A stretch of 35,971 nt of DNA. Source: a virus. Both the position numbers and the translations under genes were made by a program. The notes beneath the pieces are model-generated. The model was not told the DNA's origin and did no database searches. It saw only the letters and a list, made by a program, of their open reading frames with translations. The stretch covers positions 1-35,971 of IMG/VR virus record IMGVR_UViG_3300030118_003663; one strand, 5' to 3'. Positions 31,337 through 31,698 of the stretch are shown in pieces (the stretch's first letter is position 1; each line of letters starts with the position of its first letter).

Positions 31337-31405
31337 AATGCCTCCTTATAAAGCGAGGTTAAAAATAAACTCATCCTGAAGCACACAGCGATAAGTCTGT
31401 TAAAT

Positions 31406-31429
31406 GAGATTTCCACTATGGACAATCTC
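31406..31429 (-). promoter_or_regulatory. Hairpin in the hsp20 leader
   Basis: GAGATT-G-TCCA-TAG-TGGA-AATCTC forms a 10-bp stem with one bulged G and a 3-nt loop. It lies directly after the T-run that ends the RNA element and about 70 nt before hsp20. It could mark the 5' end of a processed hsp20 mRNA. The stretch 31337-31405 shows no other element than the ribosome site. Confidence 0.5.
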
Positions 31430-31664
31430 AAAAAAAGAAAGGGTGAGGTGGGTAGTAGGATTCGGCATACCTACAACATCGGGGAACGAACTTCCGTTAG
31501 CTTTTTACCCTCTGCACCAGAACCTCCACTGGTATGTGGAATGTGACCCCCTTCTGTTACCAAAAGGGTAGCCTCGGCACCATCCGTGAACTGTCTCACT
31601 CAAACCGCTCTCGTGGTTTGTATTATGAGTATACCCAAGGTCCGTCAACCTCTTGTTCACCCTT
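31430..31664 (-). ncRNA. Candidate structured non-coding RNA of about 235 nt
   Basis: A consensus-like promoter predicts a start near 31664. The RNA would begin at GGGTGA (31657-31662), which pairs with TCACCC (31441-31446) at its far end. AGGT/ACCT next to these adds to the closing stem. Directly after the closing stem comes TTTCTTTTTTT (31430-31440), a T-run typical of intrinsic termination. Inside are CAAACC...GGTTTG with an 8-nt loop, CCAC-ATACCA-GTGG, GGAA-GTTCG-TTCC, and GTAGG...CCTAC. I could not match it to RNase P RNA, tmRNA, 6S or a tRNA. A short protein frame (31471-31599) overlaps it and is listed separately. Confidence 0.55.
31471..31599 (-). CDS. Possible 42-residue protein inside the RNA element
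   Basis: From a GTG at 31599 an open frame reads MRQFTDGAEATLLVTEGGHI and ends KKLTEVRSPML. The composition looks like ordinary protein, which is why it is listed. Against it, there is no clear ribosome site, the start is GTG, and the frame lies inside strong inverted repeats. It is an alternative or additional reading of the candidate RNA. Confidence 0.25.
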   Translation of the reverse strand: MRQFTDGAEATLLVTEGGHIPHTSGGSGAEGKKLTEVRSPML

Positions 31665-31670
31665 TATTCT

Positions 31671-31698
31671 AGTATAACATATTTATACGATTTGTCAA
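31671..31698 (-). promoter_or_regulatory. Sigma70-type promoter of the RNA element and hsp20
   Basis: TTGACA (31693-31698) and TATACT (31671-31676) on the minus strand are spaced 16 nt apart. The predicted start, near 31664, falls two bases before the first stem of the candidate RNA. It lies in the gap after the small membrane protein gene. Confidence 0.8.
31680..31687 (-). promoter_or_regulatory. T4-type late box inside the early promoter
   Basis: An exact TATAAATA on the minus strand lies in the spacer of the sigma70-type promoter. If used, it would start transcription near 31674, so the same region could be read both early and late. It may also be chance in AT-rich sequence. Confidence 0.45.

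Follow-up and report, generated by a model that had tools for sequence, protein, structure and literature searches.

A divergent manA RNA followed by a ROSE-like hairpin element upstream of a phage hsp20 gene

The region upstream of the hsp20 gene in the window (the whole stretch of 35,971 nucleotides that was analysed, part of the 37,025-base virus record IMGVR_UViG_3300030118_003663) contains an RNA of the manA family, though a divergent one; this assignment can be regarded as close to certain. As an RNA class it is already known and ordinary: both manA and its association with a chaperone gene have been published, and Weinberg et al. (2010, PMC2864571) recorded manA RNAs in marine phages ahead of chaperone genes of the ibpA (Hsp20) type. 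What makes the region interesting is that manA stands in tandem with a ROSE-like element that covers the Shine-Dalgarno (SD) sequence of hsp20. This tandem, the closure of the RNA by an outer stem (P0) in the clade of the window, and the family-wide combination of promoter and U-tract were not found in the literature searched. The DNA polymerase encoded in the window is nearest to the gp43 protein of a T4-like cyanophage (50.7% identity). The features of the region are listed in Table 1.

Table 1. Features of the hsp20 gene and its upstream region (window coordinates)
Feature	Positions	Strand	Basis
-35 hexamer TTGACA	31693..31698	-	promoter scan; TTGACA without mismatch in 19 of the 20 clade members
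T4 late-promoter-like box TATAAATA	31680..31687	-	within the spacer of the sigma-70 promoter; weak, resemblance to the consensus only
-10 hexamer TATACT with extended TG	31671..31676	-	promoter scan and conservation in the clade; predicted start near 31665
P0 closing stem, 5' strand AAAGGGTGA	31657..31665	-	clade alignment; compensatory change in L109
manA RNA domain (RF01745, model 1-192/192)	31445..31651	-	covariance-model match and covariation
P0 closing stem, 3' strand TCACCCTTT	31438..31446	-	clade alignment
U-tract TTTCTTTTTTT, candidate attenuator/terminator	31430..31440	-	sequence; same place in relatives
Hairpin A, UGAGAUU..AAUCUCA	31405..31430	-	covarying
Hairpin B, ACUUAUC..GAUGAGU	31369..31396	-	covarying
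SD hairpin CCUC-G-CUU/AAG-GAGG, ROSE-like, bulged G	31341..31358	-	U(U/C)GCU anti-SD motif
hsp20, small heat-shock protein, 148 aa	30890..31336	-	Pfam PF00011, E 1.3e-18; phrog_432, E 2.2e-43

Family membership and fold

At the curated Rfam thresholds the window gave no match; with an E-value threshold, RF01745 surfaced as the sole match at E values up to 0.1. It aligns over its full length to 31651-31445 of the minus strand with 53.9 bits, slightly under the gathering score of 55.2, and with E values of 3.5e-13 in a 411-base stretch and 3.1e-11 over the whole window. This match rules out a novel RNA class and overturns an earlier sequence-only reading of the region, according to which the RNA matched no known class. 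Relatives were collected both through the Hsp20 protein and through a conserved 19-base pattern; 9 of 11 match RF01745 over its full length at E values of 4e-8 or better, 4 of these at or above the gathering score. The cut-off is reached by the relatives L025, L086, L097, L090, and L088, several of which precede the same hsp20 gene. No tRNA or tmRNA was found, and a blastn comparison with isolate phages returned chance matches only. An RNA on the plus strand was rejected, as that strand gives a poorer fold and the promoter, the U-tract, and the manA model all indicate the minus strand.

The order of stems, the conserved GACG hairpin loop, and the GGG/CCC enclosing stem of the manA motif are all present in the window RNA, as are the marine phage source and the ibpA/Hsp20 gene next in line. 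Members of the window's clade differ in their scores (44 to 58 bits, versus 177 to 194 in cyanophages) and in having P0, an additional stem that closes the RNA from outside where transcription is predicted to begin and that was not seen in the cyanophage type. Some stems of the model (helices 6, 8, and 11) pair differently in this clade.

The support for the predicted structure is the covariation among aligned relatives. The minimum free energy (-78 kcal/mol, z -1.94) is reached by 8 of 200 shuffled sequences, so stability alone is unremarkable, and folding energy was discarded as proof of structure because it is not significant enough. A covariance analysis of related loci had been suggested by the sequence-only reading as a check; in the alignment of the 20 clade members, 27 of the 67 consensus pairs carry at least one compensatory change affecting both sides. 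The covariation score of this alignment is 0.276 versus 0.123 in shuffles, the Rfam core together with P0 holds 93 double-change cells versus 28 in shuffles, and the signal vanishes once the partner is shifted by 1 to 3 columns. The earlier count of at least four internal hairpins was correct. The clade shows no variation at many of the unpaired positions, and the alignment to the Rfam consensus shows conserved unpaired blocks that the manA family has kept across distant phages.

Promoter, closing stem, and U-tract

The promoter in the window (TTGACA, a 16-nt spacer, and TATACT; 31698-31671, minus strand) scores 11/12, but alone it is weak evidence, since 7 promoter-like sites were found in the scanned region versus 5.9 expected. 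Among the 20 members of the hsp20 clade, a TTGACA-N16-TATAAT-like promoter is present in 19 and lies 5 to 7 nt ahead of P0 in 16; the promoter proposed from the window sequence, with a start near 31664, is thus borne out by a position conserved in relatives. P0 does not mark the 5' end in every member: in L086, L097, and L099 the promoter is displaced upstream by about 30 nt, and none was seen in L109. The spacer also contains TATAAATA, which fits the consensus of the T4 late-promoter box and is a weak candidate for one; early transcription may therefore overlap with late transcription at this site. Such a box is found within the sigma-70 spacer in many related loci as well.

The GGGTGA/TCACCC pairing, originally described as closing the RNA over 220 nt, lengthens to 9 bp (AAAGGGTGA/TCACCCTTT) around 210 nt and is followed by CTTTTTTT at 31437-31430. 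It is the sole perfect 9-bp stem with such spacing and a T-run in the whole window, versus a total of 3 in 20 shuffled windows. P0 is nearly invariant in the clade, and a single member contributes covariation to it: L109, which retains the stem with changed letters (AGAGGGGUGA/UCACCUCUCU). The T-run expected at the RNA end is present at 31440-31430 (minus strand), and a U-tract occupies the same site in relatives. Whereas an intrinsic terminator has a GC-rich, short-loop hairpin followed by a U-run, the stem and the U-run here enclose and follow a loop of 210 nt, and the terminator scan listed none at P0 and the U-tract; it is possible that the two could still work like a terminator.

A pattern scan together with isolate records yielded 118 cyanophage-type manA loci, or 100 after thinning of near-duplicates. 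A sigma-70 promoter scoring at least 10/12 lies right upstream in 99 of the latter (versus 1.75% of shuffles), with a perfect TTGACA in 91, and a T-rich stretch directly follows the domain in 73% (versus 16% of control windows), counts that are not independent because the loci are related. Judged from these sequences, a strong upstream promoter and, usually, a U-tract are traits of the manA family. With a promoter of its own on essentially every phage manA, and usually a U-tract as well, the unit of transcription that should be tested is defined, and it offers a compact construct for assaying termination and ligands in vitro.

Cultured cyanophages that carry manA include P-SSM2 and P-HM2. The next gene is on the same strand as manA, often 20 to 60 nt away. 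Downstream of the 118 cyanophage-type loci, gp32 is found within 900 nt in 26 and transaldolase in 22; other genes after manA, checked singly, include those for mannose-6-phosphate isomerase, phosphomannomutase, ThyX, Hsp20, and a 2OG oxygenase. In L109, manA lies ahead of a 2OG-Fe(II) oxygenase gene instead of hsp20. Loci L023 and L029 have no manA, yet the promoter is still there upstream of hsp20, together with the GGGTGA hairpin in bare form, as if, to judge by these sequences, the manA domain had been inserted into or lost from the hairpin loop. None of the manA-less loci L023, L029, L021, L015, and L030 gave an Rfam match.

In 29 of the 118 cyanophage-type loci (such as L149, L146, L203, and L171), a conserved hairpin, CCTAAGATGCAACT(N)GGGCAGATGG, lies at most 140 nt downstream of manA and has a T-run after it; this hairpin belongs to no Rfam family and is possibly a second regulatory motif or a terminator. 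One or two glutamine-riboswitch-like aptamers (RF01739, RF01704) were detected at L135:266-363, about 230 nt upstream of the manA RNA that precedes a thyX gene.

The hairpin element proximal to hsp20

The hsp20 gene begins about 93 nt past the U-tract, which places manA in its potential 5' UTR. The last 94 nt ahead of the gene (31430-31337, minus strand) are filled by three conserved hairpins with compensatory changes in 11 of 22 pairs. The third pairs AAGGAGG with CCUCGCUU and carries UCGCU at 31356-31352, which corresponds to the U(U/C)GCU motif that lies opposite the SD sequence in ROSE thermometers (PMC3669281; PMC10226581). This anti-SD motif is present in 23 of 25 thinned hsp20 UTRs, versus 17 of 189 genes other than hsp20 that share this SD sequence, and in all 8 isolates read by eye (P-SSM2, P-SSM4, S-SM1, Syn30, HTVC008M, HTVC115P, Mosig, and Melnitz).

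Similarly to ROSE (ROSE_2, RF01832; PMC3669281), several hairpins precede an Hsp20 gene (three here, two to four in ROSE), and in the 3'-most of them U(U/C)GCU is base-paired to the SD sequence while a G, at 31354 in the window, is left bulged; the element in the window is phage-borne, whereas ROSE is bacterial. The element is ROSE-like in layout only, because the Rfam ROSE models gave no match beyond a ROSE_2 fragment (14 bits versus a gathering score of 65) and in ViennaRNA, whose model leaves out non-canonical pairs, the SD hairpin stays closed from 10 to 50 C. Modelled SD accessibility was no lower than with shuffled upstream sequence, and thermal melting was left unsupported by this modelling. 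Going by motif and layout, the element may be a thermometer; no phage thermometer class of this kind was found described in the literature searched. If it is one, marine phages hold temperature control over their own chaperone.

A covariance model, R1, was built from the three-hairpin element and tried on loci outside the building set. Ahead of hsp20 it gave strong matches in L090, L086, L093, and L083, and also in L104, although this locus is near-identical to L099, a part of the building set. L045 and L049 matched at an E value of 4e-4 and pelagiphage Mosig weakly (E 0.013), while Melnitz and HTVC115P scored at chance level, though exactly in place.

Most relatives carry a conserved 43-aa ORF (METKYKLLVKG...HRCEH...GEGWRD) between manA and hsp20, and this ORF sits before hsp20 where manA is absent (e.g., L023:2775-2900, L029:1982-2110, and L090:2177-2305). 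It is missing from the window and from L097, L099, and L104; compared with the near-identical L005, the window has lost about 140 nt between manA and hsp20. The 43-aa protein had no match in isolate phages.

Regulatory readings of the manA RNA

The reading that we favor, with modest confidence, is that the manA RNA acts in cis as an attenuated 5' leader of hsp20. Its bases are family membership, the covarying fold, the position of the promoter, the U-tract after P0, and the same-strand place before hsp20. RNA polymerase would start at about 31665, and the nascent RNA would adopt the manA fold within P0, with the U-tract coming directly after it; the closed domain would then serve as an attenuator, with only some transcripts reading through into hsp20. 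manA has counted as a candidate riboswitch since 2010, a function that is only suspected for the family, and no ligand is reported in the literature searched. If manA is a riboswitch, a ligand or an infection-state signal would shift the balance of read-through. The read-through mRNA would bear the three-hairpin element, whose last hairpin would mask the hsp20 SD sequence with U(U/C)GCU and restrain translation until it opens, for example on warming, by analogy with bacterial ROSE. The fuller proposal, that the chaperone gene is under two serial RNA controls, a manA sensor in a start-to-end attenuator and then a phage-borne ROSE-like SD thermometer that is widespread in marine T4-like phages, is put forward only tentatively.

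An aptamer that forms part of a terminator has a precedent in the HMP-PP riboswitch (thiS motif; PMC6478431), where, likewise, the sensing domain lies within a stem followed by a U-run, so that aptamer and terminator are one object. Its aptamer is small and sits in a classic hairpin, whereas the putative sensor in the window is a 210-nt multibranched domain inside the closing stem. A structured loop of this size is no classic terminator, which counts against the attenuated leader. So do the displaced promoters of L086, L097, and L099, the lack of one in L109, and the extra terminator-like hairpin that many cyanophages have after manA and ahead of the following gene, which would suit a free-standing RNA.

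Such a free-standing small RNA, of about 235 nt from promoter to U-tract and acting in trans, with the adjacency of hsp20 being incidental, is the main rival, although we consider it rather unlikely. It is kept alive by these additional hairpins and by the great variety of downstream genes, and it would also fit the family-wide promoter at a fixed position with a terminal U-tract and the persistence of promoter and bare hairpin in L023 and L029. However, manA shares its strand with the next gene, which is usually near, the recurrent links to gp32, transaldolase, sugar-phosphate, and chaperone genes fit control in cis better, and both Rfam and the founding paper (PMC2864571) class manA as cis-regulatory. 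The agreement of promoter, stem, and T-run, from which a discrete RNA had originally been deduced, stands and has gained comparative support, but the gene context favors a leader.

A constitutive leader, whose fold would protect the 5' end or fix the level of read-through with no ligand sensing, appears less probable still. Closure of the RNA directly at its predicted start would prevent 5' decay, and the bare hairpins of L023 and L029 could serve equally well, but mere protection would need neither the unpaired positions that are invariant in the clade nor the unpaired blocks conserved across distant phages. Finally, it is most improbable that the region is protein-coding sequence on the strand of the RNA: open frames are present at 31599-31471 (42 codons) and 31660-31505 (51 codons), but neither matches a protein family, the first, whose conservation the sequence-only reading had named as evidence against an RNA, is not conserved and lacks its start codon in most relatives, either frame is broken by stops and frameshifts in about half of them, and across both frames it is the pairing that covaries.
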